This document shows, one piece after another, positions 13,892-25,066 of a stretch of 64,000 nt of DNA. Position numbers and translations under genes: made by a program. Positions within the stretch are counted from its first letter, which is position 1, and the number at the start of each line of letters is the position of its first letter. Origin of the DNA: a bacterium (GTDB lineage: Bacteria > Elusimicrobiota > Elusimicrobia > Elusimicrobiales > UBA9959); assembly GCA_021811315.1 (NCBI GenBank), contig JAJZPF010000001.1:62001-126000 (forward strand), read 5' to 3'. Under the pieces are notes generated by a model that was not told the origin of the DNA, did not search any database, and worked only from the letters and a program-made list of their open reading frames with translations.

Positions 13892-14608
13892 ATGAAGGAT
13901 CCTATTAATTCCAAAAACCCTCCGGCCATCCTTATGGTGGACGATACGCCCGCGAATCTGGAACTACTCTCAGGAATGCTGAAGGGAAGGGGCTACAAGG
14001 TGCGCGCCGCCGTAAGCGGGAAACTGGCGCTGCAGGCCGCCCGCAACGACCCGCCGGAACTTATACTTTTAGACATCAATATGCCGGAGATGAACGGCTA
14101 CGAGGTCTGCGCGGAGCTGAAGTCCGACGAAAGGCTGAAAGATATCCCCGTTATTTTCCTGAGCGCCCTCACCGAAACCATGGACAAGGTGAAAGCCTTC
14201 GGGATCGGGGGCGTGGACTACATCACCAAGCCGTTCCAGTTCGAGGAAGTCGAGGCGCGCGTCGAGACCCACCTGGAGCTGCGCCGGCAGAAAAACCGGC
14301 TGCAGGAGAACTATAACGAGCTGCGCGAGCTGAAAAAACTGCGCGACAGCCTGGTGGAAATGCTCATTCACGACCTTCGCCCGCCGCTGAAAAGCATCAG
14401 CGACCAGCTCGGACTTGTTAAGGAAAAGGAGAAAACCACCCTGTCGGCGGATTCCGTCCGCCGCCTCGCCGAAGCCATGAAGACGGCGCTGGAGCTTATT
14501 AACATGATCAGCACGGTCCTGGAAAAAGGCAAACCGGGAGAGGAGAAAACCGCGAACGCCCCCGATAAGCGCGGGGACACGACGCCCCCGCCCGCCGAGC
14601 ACTATTGA
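13892..14608 (+). CDS. Receiver domain fused to a histidine-kinase-like DHp helix pair, no ATPase
   Basis: Residues 12-130 form a receiver domain with DD at 17-18, acceptor D61 (LLDINMPEMNGY), a switch Ser in SALTET and K113 in ITKPF. A coiled-coil linker (about 125-155) leads to a DHp/HisKA-like hairpin with H160 in IHDLRPPL, close to the H-box HDLRNPL of class-I kinases. The protein ends with a disordered tail soon after, without any HATPase domain. It could be a phosphotransfer or dimerisation adaptor served by a kinase in trans. The next gene carries an RsbW-like ATPase but of a different kind. A GC-rich inverted repeat lies in the 57-base gap to that gene. Confidence 0.85.
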   Translation: MKDPINSKNPPAILMVDDTPANLELLSGMLKGRGYKVRAAVSGKLALQAARNDPPELILLDINMPEMNGYEVCAELKSDERLKDIPVIFLSALTETMDKVKAFGIGGVDYITKPFQFEEVEARVETHLELRRQKNRLQENYNELRELKKLRDSLVEMLIHDLRPPLKSISDQLGLVKEKEKTTLSADSVRRLAEAMKTALELINMISTVLEKGKPGEEKTANAPDKRGDTTPPPAEHY

Positions 14609-14665: not shown

Positions 14666-16339
14666 ATGCCATTTAAAACCAAAGACCTCGAAGGGCTGCT
14701 TGAGGCTTATGCCCTGCTTACCTCCGCGCTGGACCTTAAAACCGTCCTCACGGAGGTGCTTAGGAAGGCCGGAGCCCAGCTGAAAGCCGAGGCCTCCAGT
14801 ATCATGCTGCTCGACGAGGCCTCCGGAGAGCTGGTCTACGAGGTCGCCCTGGGCGAAGCCGGCCTGCGGATCATGGAACAGCAGCGCCTTAAAGCAGGTG
14901 TCGGCCTCGCAGGCTGGGTGGCCGGGAATCTCAAGCCCCTCTCGGTGGAAGACGCCTACAAGGACGCCAGGTTTTTCCCCGGCTTCGATAAAAAAACGGG
15001 TTTTCTGACAAAAAGCGTTCTTTGCATGCCCCTTTTAGCGAAAGACCGGCTGCTCGGCGTTGCCGAGATCATCAACAAGAAGGACGGGGCTTCTTTTACG
15101 CCCGGCGACCAGGCGCTCTTTGCAAAGTATTGCGAAGTCGCCGCCATAGCCATAGACAACGCCCTGCTTCACGGGAAAGCGCTCGAACAGGACCGCCTGC
15201 AGCACGATATGCGGATCGCGGAGCAGATCCAGAGCGCCTCCCTGCCCTCAGACATCCCCTCCATCCGGAATCTGCGCGTCGAATGCCGCAGCATAGCGTG
15301 CCGCTACGTGGCGGGCGACGTAGTCGACATCACCAGGCTTCCTGACGGCAGGCTGGCCGTGCTGGTGGCGGACGTCTCCGGCAAGGGCGTGCCGGCGGCG
15401 CTCTTCGGCGCTAAATTTTCCGCCGATTTCGAATACCTCGCCCAAGCCGACCCCGAAGGCGGGGCGCTCTTCAACCGGCTGAACGCCATAGTCACCAGGC
15501 GCTCAAAACAGGGGATATTCATCACCGCCGTTTATGCCGTGATAGATCCGGCCTCGGGCGTAGTGGAGTACGTCAACGCTGGCCATCTCCCGCCGGTCAT
15601 CGTGGGCCCGCTCGCGGGCGGCTGCCGCCTGGCCGGCGCCTCCGGCTACCCGCCCCTCGGGGTCATGGAGGACCTGAATTACAAGAGCACCCGGCTCACG
15701 CTGGCCCAGGGAGAACGCATAGTTTTCATGACCGACGGAGTCTGGGACGCCAGGTCCCTGTCCGGCGCCCGCCTGGGCCCGGAGAAGGCGCAGGGGATCC
15801 TGGCCGACTGCCCGGAACTGGCGGTCCCGCGGCTTATGAAGGCGATCACCAAATTTACCGCGGGGGTTCCGCTGGCCGACGATATTACCGTGGTCGGGGT
15901 GGGCTACGGGGATTACGAAGAGCGCACTTTCCCGTCGCAGACCAAGTCCCTGGCCCAGGCCCGGCAGTTCGTGGAGAAACTGGCGCTGGCGCACGGTTTC
16001 GACGACAGGCATACCGGGGCCATTTTACTGGCGCTTACCGAGGCCGCCTCCAACATAATAAAGCATACCTACCGCATGAACCCTGACGAGAGGATCCGCA
16101 TAGGCGTAGGGCGGGGCCCGGACCAGTTCTCGATACATATCCGCGACTGGGGAGACAGGCAGGACCCGGGGCGCTTCGTCTCGCGCGACCTCGCCGATAT
16201 CCGCCCCGGCGGGCTCGGGGTCCGCTACATACGCGAGGTGATGGACGTGGTTGAATTCGACGACAAGCTCTGGGACGGGAACGAGCTCCACATGCTGGTC
16301 CGCGGAAAAAGGAACAAAACGAATGCAGATAAGAACTGA
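14666..16339 (+). CDS. GAF-SpoIIE phosphatase-RsbW-like kinase fusion
   Basis: The 557-residue protein has three parts. A GAF sensor (about 18-165) comes first. A PP2C/SpoIIE phosphatase (about 195-410) follows, with AGDVVD, ADVSGKGVPAAL, NAGHLPP, MTDGVWDA and DDITVV covering the metal-binding Asp positions. A GHKL ATPase of the anti-sigma RsbW type (about 430-550) ends it, with N-box EAASNIIKH and GGLGVRYI. Both opposing activities of a partner switch, dephosphorylating and phosphorylating a STAS protein, are therefore on one chain. Its stop lies inside the overlapping STAS gene, so that protein is the obvious substrate. No sigma factor is nearby; the following genes are mlaEFD. Confidence 0.9.
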   Translation: MPFKTKDLEGLLEAYALLTSALDLKTVLTEVLRKAGAQLKAEASSIMLLDEASGELVYEVALGEAGLRIMEQQRLKAGVGLAGWVAGNLKPLSVEDAYKDARFFPGFDKKTGFLTKSVLCMPLLAKDRLLGVAEIINKKDGASFTPGDQALFAKYCEVAAIAIDNALLHGKALEQDRLQHDMRIAEQIQSASLPSDIPSIRNLRVECRSIACRYVAGDVVDITRLPDGRLAVLVADVSGKGVPAALFGAKFSADFEYLAQADPEGGALFNRLNAIVTRRSKQGIFITAVYAVIDPASGVVEYVNAGHLPPVIVGPLAGGCRLAGASGYPPLGVMEDLNYKSTRLTLAQGERIVFMTDGVWDARSLSGARLGPEKAQGILADCPELAVPRLMKAITKFTAGVPLADDITVVGVGYGDYEERTFPSQTKSLAQARQFVEKLALAHGFDDRHTGAILLALTEAASNIIKHTYRMNPDERIRIGVGRGPDQFSIHIRDWGDRQDPGRFVSRDLADIRPGGLGVRYIREVMDVVEFDDKLWDGNELHMLVRGKRNKTNADKN

Positions 16340-16667
16340 AGTCCTGGAAAGCGGCCTGCTGGGCCGCACGGTCGTGATAACCGCCGAGGGGGAGGTGGAT
16401 ATGCACGAGTCGCCCAGGCTGCGCAAGGCGCTGGCGGACTCTATCGGGTACAGGCCGGCGGCCGTGGTCGTGGACCTCGCGGGCGTGACTTTCATAGACA
16501 GCTCCGGCGTCGCCACGCTGGTCGAGGCGATGAAGCTGGCCAAGGCCGCGGGCCTGGAGCTCGTGCTGAGCGGCATGAACGACAAGGTCAGGGACGTTTT
16601 CGCGCTGGCCAGGCTGGATAAGTTTTTCAGGCTGGCGGCCACGCGGCAGGAAGCGCTAGGGGTGTAA
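16323..16667 (+). CDS. STAS-domain protein (anti-sigma antagonist or MlaB-like)
   Basis: The start is ATG at 16323, which overlaps the preceding gene by 17 bases and has AAGGAAC upstream. The 114-residue protein is a single STAS domain. VDLAGVTFIDSSGVATL contains the phospho-acceptor position of SpoIIAA/RsbV proteins, here S60 after D59. It is followed four bases later by mlaE. In E. coli the STAS protein MlaB binds the ATPase MlaF and is needed for the transporter. This gene could thus be an MlaB equivalent whose binding is set by Ser phosphorylation, or a general antagonist that merely shares the operon. Confidence 0.88.
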   Translation: MQIRTEVLESGLLGRTVVITAEGEVDMHESPRLRKALADSIGYRPAAVVVDLAGVTFIDSSGVATLVEAMKLAKAAGLELVLSGMNDKVRDVFALARLDKFFRLAATRQEALGV

Positions 16668-16671
16668 AAGC

Positions 16672-17478
16672 ATGGAAAACATCGCGGGAGAGCTCGGCGC
16701 CGGATTTTACTCCGGGCTCCGCTATATCGGCGGGATGGCCTGGCTTTTCGCCGACGCCCTGTTTTTCATTTTTATCGCGCCTTTCAGCAAGCGCAAGCTC
16801 CGGGTCCGCGGCGAGCCGGTCCTGGAGCAGATGGTGCGCGTCGGCTTCTCCAGCCTGGGGATAGTCTGCCTGGTGCAGCTTTTTATCGGCGTAGTGATAG
16901 CCCTGCAGCTGGCCAATCTCCTCAAAACATTCGGGATCAAGGAATACGTGGGCAGCGTGGTCGGGCTGGGCATCTTCCGGGAGCTGGGACCGCTTATGAC
17001 CGGCATGGTCATGGCCGGCTACGCGGGCGCGGCGATGTCGGCCGAGCTGGGCACGATGGCCGTAAGCGAGGAGATAGAGGCGCTGCGGGCGCTCGCTATC
17101 TCGCCGGTCCGCTACCTGGTCGCCCCGCGCCTTATCGCGGCGGCGCTGATGATCCCCTGCGTTACCATCATAGGGGACTTTGTCGGGGTCCTGGGAGGGA
17201 TGGGCATCGCCTGGAGCGTCCTGCATATTACCCCGTCCCTCTTCATAAAAATGATGCTGGAGACGCTGGTAACGTCGGATGTGGTGGTCGGCATCTTCAA
17301 GAGCTGGGTTTTCGCGGTCCTCATCACCCTGATCGCCTGTTTCGAGGGCCTGCGGGTCGACTCCGGGGCCGAAGGCGTAGGCCGCGCGGCCACCCGCTCC
17401 GTGGTGTTCTCCGTCGTGATGATCATCTCCGCGGACTGTTTGTTCGCCGCGGTATTCCGGATACTCCTGGGCCGCTGA
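16672..17478 (+). CDS. mlaE: MlaE-family phospholipid ABC transporter permease
   Basis: The 268-residue integral membrane protein carries the MlaE signature FRELGPLMTGMVMAGYAGAAMSAELG around residue 102, then EEIEALRAL. About five to six hydrophobic segments are visible. MlaE permeases form the inner-membrane core that moves phospholipids between the inner membrane and the MCE ring. The gene lies between the STAS gene and mlaF with gaps of only four bases, indicating one operon. Confidence 0.93.
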   Translation: MENIAGELGAGFYSGLRYIGGMAWLFADALFFIFIAPFSKRKLRVRGEPVLEQMVRVGFSSLGIVCLVQLFIGVVIALQLANLLKTFGIKEYVGSVVGLGIFRELGPLMTGMVMAGYAGAAMSAELGTMAVSEEIEALRALAISPVRYLVAPRLIAAALMIPCVTIIGDFVGVLGGMGIAWSVLHITPSLFIKMMLETLVTSDVVVGIFKSWVFAVLITLIACFEGLRVDSGAEGVGRAATRSVVFSVVMIISADCLFAAVFRILLGR

Positions 17479-17482
17479 ATAT

Positions 17483-18304
17483 ATGAATACGGAAGAACCG
17501 AAACCTATCGTAGTCAGGAACCTGGTCAAGAAGTTCGGCGACCAGGTCGTTCTCGACGACCTTAACTTCCATGTCAATAAAGGCGAGATCCTGGTCATCA
17601 TGGGCGGCAGCGGCTGCGGAAAATCCACCCTGCTGCGCCTTCTCATAGGCGCGATGCGCCCCACTTCGGGCAGCATAGAGATGCTGGGAACGGACCTTAC
17701 GCGCCTGAACGAAGAGGGTCTCGACGACCTGCGAAAAAAGACCGGCATCCTCTTCCAGTCCGGAGCGCTCTTCAACTCGATGACGGTGGGCGAGAACATA
17801 GCCCTGCCGCTCAAGGAGCATACCAAGCTTTCCGCGGACGTAATAAACATCATGGTCAAAATGAAGCTGGAGATGGTCGGCCTGCGGGACTTCGAACATC
17901 TCAAGCCCTCGGAGATAAGCGGCGGAATGAAAAAGCGCGTGGGCCTGGCCCGCGCTATGGCGCTGGACCCGCAGATAATGTTCTATGACGAGCCCTCGGC
18001 GGGTCTCGACCCTATCGCCAGCGCGATGATAGACGAGCTTATGATGGACCTGAACAAAAAGACCGGGGTCACCTCTATAGTAGTGACCCACGACATGGGC
18101 AGCGCTTTCAAGATAGCCCACCGGATGATACTGCTTTTCAAGGGCCGCGCCGTGGCCGTCGGAACGCCCGCCCAGATACGCGCCTCCGGGGACCCCCTCA
18201 TCCGCCAGTTCATCAACGGGCTTGCCGACGGGCCCATACCCCTGCGGGTGTCAAGAAAGGATTACGCGGAGGACCTGCTTGAGCCGTTCATCGAACGATT
18301 TTAG
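17483..18304 (+). CDS. mlaF: MlaF-family ABC transporter ATPase
   Basis: The 273-residue ATPase shows Walker A GGSGCGKST (41-49), Q-loop FQSG, the ABC signature ISGGMKKRVGLARA (about 142-155) and Walker B IMFYDEPSAGLDP, followed by the switch His in VVTHD. The SGGM form is typical of MlaF/Mkl proteins. It powers the MlaE permease. In E. coli this subunit is the docking site of the STAS protein MlaB, which fits the STAS gene two positions upstream. Confidence 0.95.
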   Translation: MNTEEPKPIVVRNLVKKFGDQVVLDDLNFHVNKGEILVIMGGSGCGKSTLLRLLIGAMRPTSGSIEMLGTDLTRLNEEGLDDLRKKTGILFQSGALFNSMTVGENIALPLKEHTKLSADVINIMVKMKLEMVGLRDFEHLKPSEISGGMKKRVGLARAMALDPQIMFYDEPSAGLDPIASAMIDELMMDLNKKTGVTSIVVTHDMGSAFKIAHRMILLFKGRAVAVGTPAQIRASGDPLIRQFINGLADGPIPLRVSRKDYAEDLLEPFIERF

Positions 18305-18312
18305 GAGAGACT

Positions 18313-19443
18313 ATGAAAACACGATCCGAACTTAAAGCGGGGGCGGTCATCCTGGCGGCGCTGTTCATGGCGGGCATGATCCTCGTGGCCTCCGGGAACT
18401 GGGGCTCCCTGTTCAAGAAGAAGCAGACGCTGCGCATCCTGTTCACGGACGTGCAGGGTCTGAAGATGGAGGACCCCGTACAGGTGATGGGCATGGAGCT
18501 CGGAAAGGTAACGGGCATAGAAGTTACCCATTTCACGGACAAGGAGGGGCGCCGCGCGGCGGGGGTCGAGGTGACGGCAAGGGTAACCTACGCGGAAGCG
18601 TTCCCGAAGGACACCAGCGTAGCCGTGGACCGCTCGCTGACCGGCATTTCGATGCTCACGGTCACGCCCGGGCGCGCCCCGGAGAAATTATCGCCCGGAG
18701 AGAGAATAACGGGGGACAACCCGGTCCCGGTCACGGAACTGGCCAAAAAGGCCGGGAGCGTGGTCCGGCGCATCGATGATTTTATCGCCTCGCTGGCGGA
18801 TAAGGAAATGGCGGGCGCGGCGCATACCGCCGTTATAAACCTCAAAGAGACCAGCGCTCTGGCCAGATCGGTGATGGCCTCCCTCAACAGGTCTATTCCG
18901 GCCGCGGAGCAGGGCATCATCGACGGCGTAAAGAACCTGGAGCAGTTCTCGGGCTCGATGAACGCCACTATCGCGGGCAACAAGGAAAGCATAAACGACA
19001 CCGTGGTAAAGATCCATTCCGCCTCCGAGTCCCTGGCGCGGGCCGGCGGAGACCTGGAAAATTTCATAGTAAAGAACCGCGACCCGCTCGGCCGCACCAT
19101 CTCTAACGGCGAGAAAGCTTCCGCCAATATTAAATCGCTTACCCGCCAGGTCCGCTGGCAGCCCTGGATCCTGCTGAAAAAGCCGAGCAAAGCCGCCGAG
19201 CTGGAGCGCGGCGTTTATAACGCGGCGCTGGACTTCAGCGAAGGCGCCGATTCGCTTAACTCCTCGGTCAAGGAGCTAGTGTTCTTTATGGACACGGCCG
19301 GAGCCAAAACCGGCGGGGCCGCCGTCGATACGGTAAAATTCAACGCCCTGATCCAGCAGGTCCATGACAACCTGGTAAAATCCGTTGAGCTGGAGAACAA
19401 ATTATGGAAAGACCTGATGAAAAAGGGAGCTAAAGTCCAATAG
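18313..19443 (+). CDS. mlaD: MlaD/MCE-domain lipid-binding protein
   Basis: The 376-residue protein has one N-terminal transmembrane segment (about 8-26) and an MCE domain (about 38-125; GLKMEDPVQVMGMELGKVTGI and LTGISMLTVTPG). A long helical C-terminal part (about 130-375) could form the central needle or coiled coil seen in longer MCE proteins. It is the substrate-binding part of the MlaEFD complex in the periplasm. AGGAGA lies close before the ATG. No mlaC or mlaA homologue was recognised in the window. Confidence 0.92.
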   Translation: MKTRSELKAGAVILAALFMAGMILVASGNWGSLFKKKQTLRILFTDVQGLKMEDPVQVMGMELGKVTGIEVTHFTDKEGRRAAGVEVTARVTYAEAFPKDTSVAVDRSLTGISMLTVTPGRAPEKLSPGERITGDNPVPVTELAKKAGSVVRRIDDFIASLADKEMAGAAHTAVINLKETSALARSVMASLNRSIPAAEQGIIDGVKNLEQFSGSMNATIAGNKESINDTVVKIHSASESLARAGGDLENFIVKNRDPLGRTISNGEKASANIKSLTRQVRWQPWILLKKPSKAAELERGVYNAALDFSEGADSLNSSVKELVFFMDTAGAKTGGAAVDTVKFNALIQQVHDNLVKSVELENKLWKDLMKKGAKVQ

Positions 19444-19488: not shown

Positions 19489-20004
19489 ATGAGACACCTG
19501 ATCCTGGCTGCTCTCTTCGTACCTTTCTCTTTCGCTTACGGATCGCTGCCGGCGCAGCGCGTCTGCCGTCTGCGGATGTTCAATACCCATACCCTGGAGC
19601 GCATCGACGTGGTCTACAGCCGGGACGGCGTCTACGACCGGGAGGCGCTGGCGAAGCTGGACCTGTTCCTGCGCGACTGGCGTGAGGGTAAGGTCAAACA
19701 TTACGACCCGCGGCTCTTCGACCTGCTCACCGAACTCGCCGACAAAGCAGGGCGGCCGGAGGGCGAGATAAATATCATCTGCGGCTACCGTACCCCGAAG
19801 ACCAATAAACAGCTCCGGAGCCGCAGTTCGGGGGTAGGCGGCAACAGCCTGCATATGAAGGCCGAGGCCATGGATATCCGCCTGCCGGGCGTGAGCACCG
19901 CCCGCCTTCGCGACACCGCCCTCGCCCTCAAACGCGGCGGCGTCGGCTACTATCCCGGCTCCGATTTCGTCCACGTGGACATCGGCCGCGTGCGCCGCTG
20001 GTAA
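19489..20004 (+). CDS. DUF882/YcbK-type peptidase M15 murein hydrolase
   Basis: The 171-residue protein has a signal peptide (residues 1-17) and the DUF882/M15A signature: CGYRTPKTN, then SLHMKAEAMDI (zinc ligands His and Asp) and FVHVDIGRVRRW (His). It resembles E. coli MepK (YcbK), an endopeptidase that cuts 3-3 crosslinks in peptidoglycan. The window also encodes an L,D-transpeptidase, which makes such crosslinks. A TACACTATA box lies only a few bases before the ATG, so the gene may have a very short leader. Confidence 0.88.
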   Translation: MRHLILAALFVPFSFAYGSLPAQRVCRLRMFNTHTLERIDVVYSRDGVYDREALAKLDLFLRDWREGKVKHYDPRLFDLLTELADKAGRPEGEINIICGYRTPKTNKQLRSRSSGVGGNSLHMKAEAMDIRLPGVSTARLRDTALALKRGGVGYYPGSDFVHVDIGRVRRW

Positions 20005-21189: not shown

Positions 21190-22365
21190 TTACTTCTTAG
21201 AGATTTGTTGACGGAGTGAGTCAAAAGAGATTAAAAACGGCAGACTCCATGAATACCCTACATTAACGACATTAACAAGAGATTCTTTCCGATAGAAATA
21301 CTGATGCCTCTTTAGAGAGTTCTCTATAGAAATAGATTTAGAAATCAAGCAAATTTTCTGATATTCCCTGTCCACAACATGAGTATCCCCGCCTGGGTGC
21401 GCTTTGGATAAATGCTGCGATGCTGTCAATTTAATTAGGTTTTCTGGATAAGGGCGCAGCTCCGGGAACTCATTTCGCGGGAAGATATGATGGATATGGT
21501 CAGCGGGACCTTTCCCTAAAGAATCAGGCACTTCACTAGTGGCATGCATATCATTTACTTGATTTTTCAACCTTTGATCTGCGTACGCCCCAGATGACTC
21601 CGCAGGGGCCTCCTCTGCTGCCGACGCCCGAGTGACACTCTTTTCCTTATCCTTGTCTCTAAAATTGATTCGATTGTACATCAAATCTTGGTAATAGAAT
21701 GGGTGCTTAGACATCCGCCCAGCTTCTGTCCCCGGCATGCATTTATCGACCGCAAGAATATTAATTATTTTAGGGAAAATCCGGTTAACCTCTGTTGTAC
21801 CATTAATCTTTGTGTTCCCAATTATTAGTTTTTGGAATTTATTTTTAAATTCCAAAAACTCACTTGGTCCCAATGCCCCTTTCCTGTATAAATCCTCATA
21901 GTGTGCTATATCCGCATAGAACTCACTATCTCTCATGACTTTCTCTAGATATAGGCTTAGGAAATTAAAAGCATTCCGGGAATTACTTGCGATATACTGT
22001 AAAACCTCTTTATTATGAATAATAAATTTAGCTGAACGCCCAGAGTTATCAACAGATAATATCTTTGCATACTCCAGAGCTTTGATTGGCTGGCCAATAA
22101 ATTTATCATACTCGTGAACTGCTGTTTCATCTTTTGGGACAGGCTTAGAAAAGACCTGTTGGACAAGTTTCATGAAATACTGAGAATTCCAAATATCCTT
22201 TATGGTGAACTCAGAAGAGGCCTCGCCTAAAGTAAAAACAAGTACACAGTCAGCGATAAAGGAAAGCACATCCGGGGTAACTTTCTGATCCATAAATCTA
22301 GCATTGCCAGTTTTACGAATATCGAAGTCGTAGCTATCTAAGTGCTTCCGGATCTTTTCAATCAT
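21190..22365 (-). CDS. HNH endonuclease, probable restriction enzyme
   Basis: The start is ATG at 22365, overlapping the methyltransferase stop by 8 bases. The 391-residue protein has an alpha-helical N-terminal part without clear homology. Its HNH nuclease motif lies at residues 289-323 (DHIHHIFPRN, PENLIKL, QHLSKAHPGG), with the metal- and phosphate-binding His and Asn residues present. The region at about 240-275 is low-complexity and could be a linker. Co-transcription with a methyltransferase supports a restriction role. The pairing with the cytosine-C5 half of the fused methyltransferase is a guess. Confidence 0.8.
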   Translation of the reverse strand: MIEKIRKHLDSYDFDIRKTGNARFMDQKVTPDVLSFIADCVLVFTLGEASSEFTIKDIWNSQYFMKLVQQVFSKPVPKDETAVHEYDKFIGQPIKALEYAKILSVDNSGRSAKFIIHNKEVLQYIASNSRNAFNFLSLYLEKVMRDSEFYADIAHYEDLYRKGALGPSEFLEFKNKFQKLIIGNTKINGTTEVNRIFPKIINILAVDKCMPGTEAGRMSKHPFYYQDLMYNRINFRDKDKEKSVTRASAAEEAPAESSGAYADQRLKNQVNDMHATSEVPDSLGKGPADHIHHIFPRNEFPELRPYPENLIKLTASQHLSKAHPGGDTHVVDREYQKICLISKSISIENSLKRHQYFYRKESLVNVVNVGYSWSLPFLISFDSLRQQISKK

Positions 22366-25021
22366 GTTTCGCCCCAAAGGCTTCTACCAATAACTGCGTG
22401 CCAGAACCCTTATTAGCAAAGTCTTCTTTTTTTATTCCAAAAAAGAAAACAGAATTGCTATCAATATTTAACGATCGAGTGCCATGGTTGCGGGCGATTG
22501 CATAGAACTTGATGAATTCAGACGTCCCATAGTACTCTAAATCGTTTTTCGTTATAGGTCTGGTCCCATTTTTAAGGGTAAGAATGGCTACAGAACCATC
22601 CGTAATGGAGTTTTTTGGTAAAAAGCAGGCCCGGGGATTATAGGTCAAGTTTGGGACAAGAACCGCTGAGGGATGGTTGCAGTATTTCCAAACCCCCAAT
22701 TGTACTGCCTCATCGACAAAACAATCGTAACCGTCTATCTCAAGTATCTTGTTAGAGGCAATATTGCGCGATTTCAATACACGTATTTTTCCTTTGGGCT
22801 TAGTAATCTTCTTAGTAATTTGCCTATCCCTAAATGCTTTAAAGATATCTAATTTTAGGTTTCGCGCAACCCCGTCAAAATACTCATTCCGGTAAATTAA
22901 CCAGTATGGGAAATCTTCCGGAAAAATGTAAGACTGTTTTTTATGGGAAATTCCATTTATAATATTCGACTCTATCTTTACCAGGTTATTAGCAGGTGTT
23001 TTATTTGTATGCAAGATAAAACTGATAGTCTCAATTTTTACACCCTTAAATCCATCTTCGCCATAATCATTTATTTTTTGAAACTGGAATTTACTAAGCA
23101 ATCCTCTAGTTTTCCCAAACTCCGGCGCATTAAGCAGACTTTTCGGGACAATGAGTGACACGCATGCGCCTAAAGTCAAAGACTTTTCGATAAAATATGC
23201 AAAAATATTTTTTGTGTCAGTATTAATGACATTTTGGCGATATTTCGCCAACAAGAGATCATTAGTTATTTTTTTAAACGGCGGATTTCCAACCACAATG
23301 TCGTATTTAGTGGTGAATTTATGCAGAAGGAAATCCGCATGTATAAAATTTATCTTAATATTTTCCGGGATCGCGAAGTTTTTTAATAGAAGCTTAAGTG
23401 TTTTTAGCGAGTTTCCATCTACATCGACAACATCAATAACTACTTCAGGAACCGATTTATATTTCTCTATCAAGAGCGGCAGAAAATTACCCACTCCAAT
23501 CGAGGGCTCCAAAACCCGCAAGGTTTTAAACCTTTTCGCCGCGGGGAGATCTTTCACAACTGAATAGCATATATCCTGACCCGTATAGTACGCAGCGTTT
23601 TCATTCCTTAAAGTATTAGAAAATTCCGCAATCTTCGACAGGACGGAGTGCGAGTATTTGCCAGCATTTTCGGCAATGAATTCATTCAGACTTACAACAT
23701 CGTTAATTGCATTCTCCCTAATTACCTGCGCTATACTTTGCCCGGTGAAATCACGGCCAAACAAATAATTTTTAATTTTCAGCGCCATCTGCTGAAAAAT
23801 CACCGTCGGAACAGCCTCTCCTAATGAGTGTCGGATATTCATTTCCGCTTTCGAAAGAAACTTCTTTTTATCCGCTATAGGCAAAGAATTAAGAATTGTC
23901 GTTGGAATACTAGTCCATCGGAATGATTCCGGGACTGACATCATCAACATCACCTCACGAACACTAAAAACCCTATTATCCGTGGGGTGGACAGTGTTCT
24001 GGCTCGATAAAATGTCATTTCGCGTATGTATGCACGGGGAGACCTTGTTCCAACTCTGCCTGGTGTATTTATCCCCATTTTTATTTGCATTACAGACTAA
24101 TTCTCCATTTACAATCTTATGCGGAATCTTTTTGGGATCCTTATTATCAAAAGCTGACTGAGCCTCTTTTATATCCTTTATCCACTCCAGCATAGCCGGG
24201 TTATATTTTTTAAAATTATGGTAAACATCTTTCTCCCAGATATCCCCCATATTCTTTAGTGAAGGCAGATGACCTATTATTTCCCTTAGTGTTCTTTCTT
24301 TTCTTCGTTCCGGAAAAAAATCAAAAGGGGTGACATCTTTCAAGTCCTTGCGAGCGCCTATCACTACAGTTCGCGTTCTGCTTGAGGGGCAGCCGAATTC
24401 TTTAAAATTTATCACATCACTATATATGTTGTAGTGTCCCGCTAGATTCGATTCTATTGCATCCTTTATCTTTTTGGTTGCCCCATCCACATCTGTGCAT
24501 GTAGTATTCAAAAATGCGCGCACATTTTCAAAAATAAAGAATCTCGGTTTAATTGATTTTACAAGCAAAACAGACTCGACAACCAGCGAGTTCCTTTGCA
24601 ATTCATTCCCTTTTTTATGATTTGCGACAGACATGCCCTGGCAGGGCGGGGTCGCAATAAGGACGTCAAGAGCCCCCTCACTTTTTAACCCCCACTTCTT
24701 TAATTCAGCAAAAATTTTAGATTTTGTTTCAGGCTTAGAGATATCATCGGATATATATCCGGTCTCATGCCGACATTTTTCATTATACTTCTGTATTTCA
24801 AGCCTTTTTTTTAATATTTCGACTGTAGCGACACAATCATATCCCTCGAGTTTAAATCCATAACACCCAATGCCTGCTCCACTAAACAAGCTTAAATAGG
24901 TAAGTTTTTTGTCGGATTTCCCACTCATACTTATATTATACTTTGTTTGTAAATTCATTTTCTTCTCATAAACATTTAGCAGCTCCGGCTGATAGAGGTT
25001 AGGCTCATTCTTATCTATCAT
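22358..25021 (-). CDS. Bifunctional DNA methyltransferase: cytosine-C5 domain fused to adenine-N6 domain
   Basis: ATG at 25021 is preferred to the upstream alternative start at 25042. The 887-residue chain has a full m5C methyltransferase (about 40-425). Visible motifs are FSGAG (46-50), the PPC loop with catalytic C127, ENV (165-167), SRTRTVVIGA and the SLGEAVP motif X-like segment (399-405). A second methyltransferase of the Eco57I/TaqI gamma type follows (about 465-700). It has EPSIGVGNF (505-513) and catalytic NPPF (579-582), then a TaqI-like target-recognition region to the end. Both active sites look intact. It should modify DNA at two kinds of base and protect against the two downstream nucleases. 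Confidence 0.9.
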   Translation of the reverse strand: MIDKNEPNLYQPELLNVYEKKMNLQTKYNISMSGKSDKKLTYLSLFSGAGIGCYGFKLEGYDCVATVEILKKRLEIQKYNEKCRHETGYISDDISKPETKSKIFAELKKWGLKSEGALDVLIATPPCQGMSVANHKKGNELQRNSLVVESVLLVKSIKPRFFIFENVRAFLNTTCTDVDGATKKIKDAIESNLAGHYNIYSDVINFKEFGCPSSRTRTVVIGARKDLKDVTPFDFFPERRKERTLREIIGHLPSLKNMGDIWEKDVYHNFKKYNPAMLEWIKDIKEAQSAFDNKDPKKIPHKIVNGELVCNANKNGDKYTRQSWNKVSPCIHTRNDILSSQNTVHPTDNRVFSVREVMLMMSVPESFRWTSIPTTILNSLPIADKKKFLSKAEMNIRHSLGEAVPTVIFQQMALKIKNYLFGRDFTGQSIAQVIRENAINDVVSLNEFIAENAGKYSHSVLSKIAEFSNTLRNENAAYYTGQDICYSVVKDLPAAKRFKTLRVLEPSIGVGNFLPLLIEKYKSVPEVVIDVVDVDGNSLKTLKLLLKNFAIPENIKINFIHADFLLHKFTTKYDIVVGNPPFKKITNDLLLAKYRQNVINTDTKNIFAYFIEKSLTLGACVSLIVPKSLLNAPEFGKTRGLLSKFQFQKINDYGEDGFKGVKIETISFILHTNKTPANNLVKIESNIINGISHKKQSYIFPEDFPYWLIYRNEYFDGVARNLKLDIFKAFRDRQITKKITKPKGKIRVLKSRNIASNKILEIDGYDCFVDEAVQLGVWKYCNHPSAVLVPNLTYNPRACFLPKNSITDGSVAILTLKNGTRPITKNDLEYYGTSEFIKFYAIARNHGTRSLNIDSNSVFFFGIKKEDFANKGSGTQLLVEAFGAKHD

Positions 25022-25066
25022 ATTGCCCCCAAAATGCCCCACTTATTTTCCCATAGTGTAGCAGGC

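Follow-up and report, generated by a model that had tools for sequence, protein, structure and literature searches.

Known Systems and the Locus

In the MlaFEDB complex of Escherichia coli, an ATP-binding cassette (ABC) lipid transporter, the STAS protein MlaB binds the ATPase MlaF, and a C-terminal extension of MlaF with Tyr261, Leu265 and Leu266 is described as part of the MlaB site (PMC7367683). According to the accessible parts of the reports, Thr52 of MlaB is central in this interface and the T52E substitution weakens binding (PMC7367683). The idea that MlaB is controlled by phosphorylation was put forward in 2016 and 2020, with no kinase given in those parts (PMC5016091, PMC7367683). One of the two reports calls the regulation of MlaB an open question and phosphorylation of Thr52 an intriguing possibility, for which no kinase is known (PMC7367683). 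Here, we describe an operon from a 64,000-nucleotide stretch of an Elusimicrobiota genome (GCA_021811315.1, contig JAJZPF010000001.1, positions 62,001–126,000; the whole stretch is called the window, and coordinates refer to it), in which a sensor-phosphatase-kinase fusion and a STAS protein are encoded together with MlaE, MlaF and MlaD. It is probably a partner switch with an ABC lipid transporter as its output, in which the dephosphorylated STAS protein would act as MlaB and phosphorylation would release it.

The locus shares with E. coli MlaFEDB the proteins MlaE and MlaD, an MlaF with the C-terminal "handshake" and a STAS protein in which a residue that can be phosphorylated stands at the place of Thr52; unlike that system, for which the accessible text names neither kinase nor phosphatase, it encodes both in the operon (PMC7367683, PMC5016091). 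The gene order also differs, the STAS protein is full length according to its model, mlaC is missing from the operon, and MlaD has twice the length of its E. coli counterpart. SiaABCD of Pseudomonas aeruginosa likewise combines a PP2C phosphatase, a kinase and a small switch protein in one operon with no sigma factor, and its dephosphorylated switch protein binds and activates an enzyme, which is a precedent for a non-sigma output (PMC7278518). That system differs in its diguanylate cyclase output, its unusual kinase SiaB and the phosphorylated residue Thr68, while the output here is an ABC transporter. As far as the accessible text goes, SypE/SypA of Vibrio fischeri resembles the locus in having kinase and phosphatase on one protein and a stand-alone STAS protein that is active when dephosphorylated, but SypE has a receiver domain instead of GAF and the order kinase-receiver-phosphatase, and the output is unknown (PMC3610818, PMC8256260). 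Rv1364c of Mycobacterium tuberculosis (PDB 3ke6) carries RsbU and RsbW parts in the same order on one chain; in the available description its STAS domain is fused as well and its sensor is PAS (PMC12143880). The general-stress phosphatases of the RsbU/RsbP type are described in the same source as sharing sensor, helical linker and PPM phosphatase; their kinase is a separate anti-sigma factor and their output is SigB (PMC12143880). Thus, the idea of MlaB phosphoregulation and non-sigma partner switches (SiaABCD, SypE/SypA) are already known, and the new element would be the joining of the two. Searches of the open PMC literature found neither a paper that connects Mla to partner switching nor a described MlaB kinase.

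Operon Organization

The five genes lie head to tail on the forward strand at 14666–19443, as revealed by open reading frame (ORF) and Pfam analyses. The fusion gene (14666–16339; 557 amino acids) overlaps the STAS gene (16323–16667; 114 amino acids) by 17 bases, and gaps of 4, 4 and 8 bases separate the STAS gene, mlaE (permease; 16672–17478), mlaF (ATPase; 17483–18304) and mlaD (18313–19443; 376 amino acids with a single MCE domain and a long C-terminal part). All five genes and spacings of the original prediction, which was made from the sequence and placed mlaE, mlaF and mlaD at gaps of 4–8 bases behind the overlapping pair, were thereby confirmed.

The transporter genes gave clear Pfam matches for MlaE (PF02405; 5e-72, 242.4 bits), ABC_tran (PF00005; 4e-34) and MlaD (PF02470; 3.5e-9), and MlaE passed the TIGR00056 cut-off (218.1 vs. 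212.2 bits). Together, MlaE, an ABC ATPase and an MCE protein make up an Mla ABC transporter. The cut-offs of the E. coli-type equivalogs were not reached by MlaF (NF008809; 258.1 vs. 441 bits) or MlaD (TIGR04430; 47.9 vs. 135 bits).

Fusion Protein and STAS Protein

The fusion protein contains a GAF sensor domain (residues 23–163; 14732–15154), a SpoIIE/PPM phosphatase domain (residues 226–411; 15341–15898; 4e-42) and a HATPase_c_2 kinase domain similar to RsbW/SpoIIAB (residues 422–543; 15929–16294; 1e-21), and the latter two passed the curated cut-offs (PF07228, 144.7 vs. 25 bits; PF13581, 77.6 vs. 27.4 bits). The phosphatase residues D218/D221, D236, D357 and D405/D406, as well as the kinase residues E459, N463, H467, D494, G496 and the GGLG motif at 515–518, are invariant in all eight orthologues; these are the positions that PPM phosphatases and RsbW-type kinases would be expected to need for activity. 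In the AlphaFold2 model, a 47-residue helix (residues 146–192; 15101–15241) links GAF to the phosphatase. The mean predicted local distance difference test score (pLDDT) of this model is 71, with about 56–89 across the linker helix and a poor kinase part, and the model was used for fold matches and the linker only; its best fold match is the Rv1364c-type RsbU-RsbW. Sensor-phosphatase helical linkers of this kind are said to transmit signals to PPM phosphatases in the accessible part of Baral et al. (PMC12143880).

When the GAF domain was compared with PDB sequences (E-value ≤ 0.001), 19 of the 26 matches were cyclic-nucleotide phosphodiesterases, adenylate cyclase or Lcd1 (1e-23 to 8e-11); the remainder comprised one HD-GYP protein (4e-16) and DevS and others at 2e-4 or worse. 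The fold search agreed with the cyclic-nucleotide GAF class. The GAF sensor noted originally is thus present and is refined to this class by sequence; its ligand is probably a cyclic nucleotide, which we treat as a lead only because the PDB is rich in cyclic-nucleotide GAF domains.

The STAS protein matched the Pfam family with an E-value of 2e-22 (PF01740; 79.6 vs. 22.6 bits) and reached the cut-off of the anti-anti-sigma family TIGR00377 ant_ant_sig (76.6 vs. 53.45 bits). By these scores, the phosphatase, kinase and STAS proteins qualify as the components of an RsbU-RsbW-RsbV partner-switching module. Its model (pLDDT 94) is full length, with the fifth strand and the last helix included, and S60 (codon at 16500–16502) heads the second helix (residues 60–76). 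In the alignment with E. coli MlaB, D59-S60 stand opposite D51-T52, and the earlier assignment of S60 to the phospho-Ser position held up, the residue being the first Ser of FIDSSG and aligned with Thr52. S60 presumably corresponds to Ser58 of SpoIIAA. From alignment, conservation and model, S60 is the predicted phospho-acceptor: it is invariant, together with the DSSG motif, in the STAS proteins of all eight Elusimicrobiota carriers and is present in three Desulfobacterota cassettes, and DSSG is also kept in the loci L071, L072, L145 and L183.

Distribution of the Cassette

Among 294 Elusimicrobiota genomes, eight encode the fusion (E-value ≤ 1e-60), and the same eight encode the cassette-type MlaE (E-value ≤ 1e-52). 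The STAS protein was found in ten genomes (E-value ≤ 1e-10), namely these eight and two with relatives of 27–28% identity and without the cassette. All eight carriers keep the order fusion-STAS-MlaE-MlaF-MlaD; one of them belongs to another family of the class, and its fusion, STAS and MlaE show 61–64% identity. As judged from these comparisons, the cassette is a conserved unit, more than would be expected by chance.

A search of 345 Desulfobacterota genomes yielded five phosphatase-encoding ones. The cassette is present in G301 and G323, the locus of G361 is interrupted by a contig end, and G515 and G579 have the phosphatase alone. With G302 included, three Desulfobacterota cassettes encode GAF-SpoIIE, a separate HATPase, STAS, MlaE and MlaF in the same order, and MlaD follows in the two untruncated ones. 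In G323, the phosphatase and kinase, kinase and STAS, and STAS and mlaE genes overlap by 4 bases each. Because the Desulfobacterota cassettes encode the kinase on its own, between the phosphatase and STAS genes, the Elusimicrobia fusion is most simply explained by the joining of two neighbouring genes. The survey of gene neighbourhoods thus found the module beside mlaEF in 8/8 Elusimicrobiota carriers and in 3/3 readable Desulfobacterota cassettes.

A contig scan of named genomes with two peptide patterns only returned 76 loci and brought in two Desulfobacterota loci. Eight of the 76 (L064–L069, L071 and L072) combine the fusion or GAF-SpoIIE with STAS and MlaE; since the scan was narrow, the true spread is at least this wide. 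The fusion with STAS was also considered as a general, Mla-independent module, and this was rejected: the other 68 loci lack an adjoining STAS or MlaE gene and are mostly weaker, partial GAF/SpoIIE matches. One locus, L070, has GAF-SpoIIE and HATPase with neither STAS nor MlaE next to them.

In G303, G515 and G579, a phosphatase of the same family lies away from Mla, and a DSSG-type STAS gene stands directly before another mlaE. The loci L183:3096-6236 (G303), L169 and L171 hold STAS-mlaE-mlaF with no linked kinase, and the GAF-SpoIIE phosphatase is on another contig or far away, so that a trans-acting version of the system is possible in these genomes. When the best MlaE locus was read in 30 of the 50 searched genomes (STAS domains fused to MlaE not being counted as free), a free STAS gene stood beside MlaE in 6/6 genomes with the GAF-SpoIIE family and in 0/24 without it (p 1.7e-6; 3e-4 collapsed), and three of the six have the phosphatase on another contig. 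Half of the 14 genomes of the phylum of G303 (seven) have a near MlaE. Among their loci, L247 encodes an MlaF with the tail and has an aminotransferase gene upstream, L248–L251 have neither MlaF nor STAS beside MlaE, and for L246 the reading extended no further than the 1.5-kb flanks.

MlaF Handshake Tail

Alignments revealed that MlaF of the window has a C-terminal extension (18221–18301, forward strand) with Y261, L265 and L266 as in the E. coli handshake that contributes to the MlaB groove (PMC7367683). The three positions are Y/L/L in all eight Elusimicrobiota cassettes and in L145, Y/L/M in L072 and Y/L/F in L183. In the same genus, the ordinary MlaF stops short of this tail, and no STAS gene adjoins the ordinary Mla genes. 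In a set of 77 distinct complete MlaF proteins encoded beside an MlaE, which is not a random draw and includes many relatives, 14 have the tail. A free STAS gene lies next to 13 of the 14 (E. coli, known beforehand, is one of the 13), vs. two of the 63 tail-less MlaFs (Fisher p 8e-12; 4e-5 after collapsing relatives).

In the MlaF tree, built with the tail removed and with short loci as well as L042, L043, L063 and L150 excluded, the eight Elusimicrobiota cassettes, two Desulfobacterota cassettes and one STAS-linked MlaF of G303 were separated from 61 others with support of 97/87. In the MlaE tree, from which duplicate rows keyed to shorter loci were dropped, the cassette MlaEs fell outside a 100/99 clade of generic MlaEs; a single clade of cassette MlaEs was neither recovered nor rejected (p-AU, from the approximately unbiased test, 0.42; four of the eight Elusimicrobiota cassette rows in the tree). 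Within the MlaF helical subdomain, cassette proteins share more with E. coli than generic ones (0.495 vs. 0.403), and 6 of the 12 discriminating positions fall there (p 0.016). This likeness is suggestive and is given little weight because some generic MlaFs score as high. Overall, the cassette transporter looks built for a STAS partner.

Proposed Mechanism and Alternatives

The module would consist of a GAF-controlled PPM phosphatase, an RsbW-type serine kinase and a STAS protein of the anti-anti-sigma type, with an ABC lipid transporter, not a sigma factor, as the output and phospholipid as its likely cargo. The dephosphorylated STAS protein would occupy the MlaB site of MlaF, and assembly or ATPase activity would depend on it. 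When the kinase domain phosphorylates S60, the STAS protein would leave MlaF and the transporter would be turned off. Binding of the GAF ligand would activate the phosphatase through the linker helix, and the STAS protein, once dephosphorylated, would bind MlaF and turn the transporter on. This polarity is proposed because the E. coli T52E variant binds more weakly and because SiaC and SypA act in their dephosphorylated forms. The original suggestion that phosphorylation switches the binding of STAS to MlaF with no sigma factor involved is therefore supported by comparative evidence; phosphorylation, its reversal and the binding are what we infer from it.

Several observations weigh against this model. 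The STAS protein does not reach the cut-off of the MlaB family (NF033618 mlaB_1; 31.1 vs. 90 bits), and it is nearer to SpoIIAA/RsbV/TM1442 than to MlaB both in sequence (E-values 1e-17 and 1e-11 vs. 2e-4) and in structure (Z about 18 vs. 13). Since it fails the MlaB equivalog and is of the anti-anti-sigma type, it is proposed to work like MlaB without being a member of the MlaB family, which refines the earlier comparison with MlaB. Co-occurrence of the genes could in part reflect transfer of the operon as a block, and the tail may simply be ancestral in the cassette MlaF lineage; L247 has a handshake MlaF without STAS, and the STAS-linked MlaFs of L169 and L171 lack the handshake. In the accessible reports on E. 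coli, the T52A variant of MlaB remains bound and ATPase activity is lost (PMC5016091, PMC7367683). The Thr52 site is therefore no simple on/off handle even in E. coli, and residue 60 may also act in catalysis. Finally, the SpoIIE domain of the G002 fusion has an in-frame gap of about 35 residues (near query positions 256–290), and the kinase half is intact. This protein (L036:10693-12246 and L068, the same genome) may be a natural variant without phosphatase function or may result from an error in the assembly.

The fusion and STAS protein might instead form a conventional partner switch that controls a sigma factor, and thus transcription, and has nothing in common with mlaEFD but the operon, an arrangement that we consider unlikely. 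It would account for the resemblance of the STAS and kinase domains to RsbV/SpoIIAA and RsbW/SpoIIAB and for the best fold match, as Rv1364c is part of a sigma-factor system. It does not agree with the linkage to mlaEF in the eight and three cassettes of two phyla, beside none of which a sigma gene was seen, or with the correlation between MlaF tail and STAS linkage. In G019, the most complete carrier genome, Sigma70 region 3 was found in two proteins only, judged by eye to be RpoD and an RpoD-like protein of 355 amino acids; ECF (extracytoplasmic function) sigma factors without region 3 were not searched. The sigma-factor explanation was therefore rejected as the main one on linkage, the G019 count of region-3 sigma factors and the tail. 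The arrangement that would have refuted the original suggestion was not seen either: in none of the relatives examined do the fusion and STAS genes adjoin a sigma gene while mlaEFD lies at a different place. Proteins with HATPase_c_2 (E-value ≤ 1e-6) number one each in G019 (listed as 100% complete) and G227, both of the cassette, and the STAS domains of G019 are that of the cassette and one in each of two long open frames (568 and 759 codons). G019 thus appears to offer no alternative partner of the usual kind.

It is also quite improbable that the STAS protein is a constitutive structural MlaB while the kinase and phosphatase act on something else or only tune assembly. According to the accessible text, the E. 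coli complex needs MlaB with no known kinase (PMC7367683), and both L192 and E. coli are STAS-Mla systems without a linked kinase; however, these two, the only kinase-free MlaB-like proteins compared, have Thr where the kinase-linked STAS proteins keep the Ser of DSSG, and the kinase and STAS genes overlap in the window and in G323. Very unlikely, in our view, is the opposite polarity, with phospho-STAS activating MlaF or free STAS inhibiting it: some STAS proteins, such as BtrV, are described as working the other way (PMC8256260), but the weakened pairing of T52E MlaB with MlaF and the active dephosphorylated forms of SiaC and SypA speak for dephospho-STAS as the on state.

If the proposed partner switch is correct, envelope lipid traffic would be switched quickly by signalling, not transcription, and the MlaB site on MlaF would be a true regulatory port on an ABC ATPase. 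Control of a pump by a phosphate on a helper protein would answer the open question of how such pumps are controlled, and since kinase and phosphatase are encoded in the same operon, the question of MlaB regulation can be addressed directly with proteins produced in a laboratory strain. With somewhat less assurance, we favour the wider view that, in at least two phyla, a kinase/phosphatase that senses cyclic nucleotides directly gates a lipid transporter by phosphorylating or dephosphorylating an MlaB-like STAS protein, which is thereby removed from or loaded onto the transporter ATPase, and that, together with the importer locus L063, ABC transporters would form a new class of partner-switch outputs.

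Other Partner Switches and Neighbouring Genes

Two further STAS-HATPase pairs lie elsewhere in the carrier G003, so carriers can also hold other partner switches. In G238 (same family, other genus), L063:6901-13285 encodes an amino-acid-type ABC importer whose 372-residue ATPase carries HATPase_c_2 at its C-terminus (35.8 vs. 27.4 bits). Behind the ATPase gene come genes for a solute-binding protein, STAS, a separate HATPase, an NMT1-like binding protein and a Cache-HAMP-SpoIIE phosphatase. By its domains, the locus appears to be another, unrelated case of an ABC transporter linked to a partner switch.

Upstream of the fusion, a response-regulator gene (13892–14608, forward strand) was identified by ORF, Pfam and neighbourhood comparison. 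It is found in six of the eight cassettes, and not beside those of G256 and G108, and is therefore considered accessory. The response regulators of the window, L037:12513-16704 and L036 have a short C-terminal part with IHDLRPPL, which we read as an H-box-like string, and several genomes carry tandem copies of about 70% identity. After mlaD, 19489–20004 encodes an M15 (DUF882) peptidase, present in 6/8 cassettes and a possible envelope partner. Further downstream, 22358–25042 encodes an 894-residue protein that combines C-5 cytosine methylase and Eco57I-type methylase domains.

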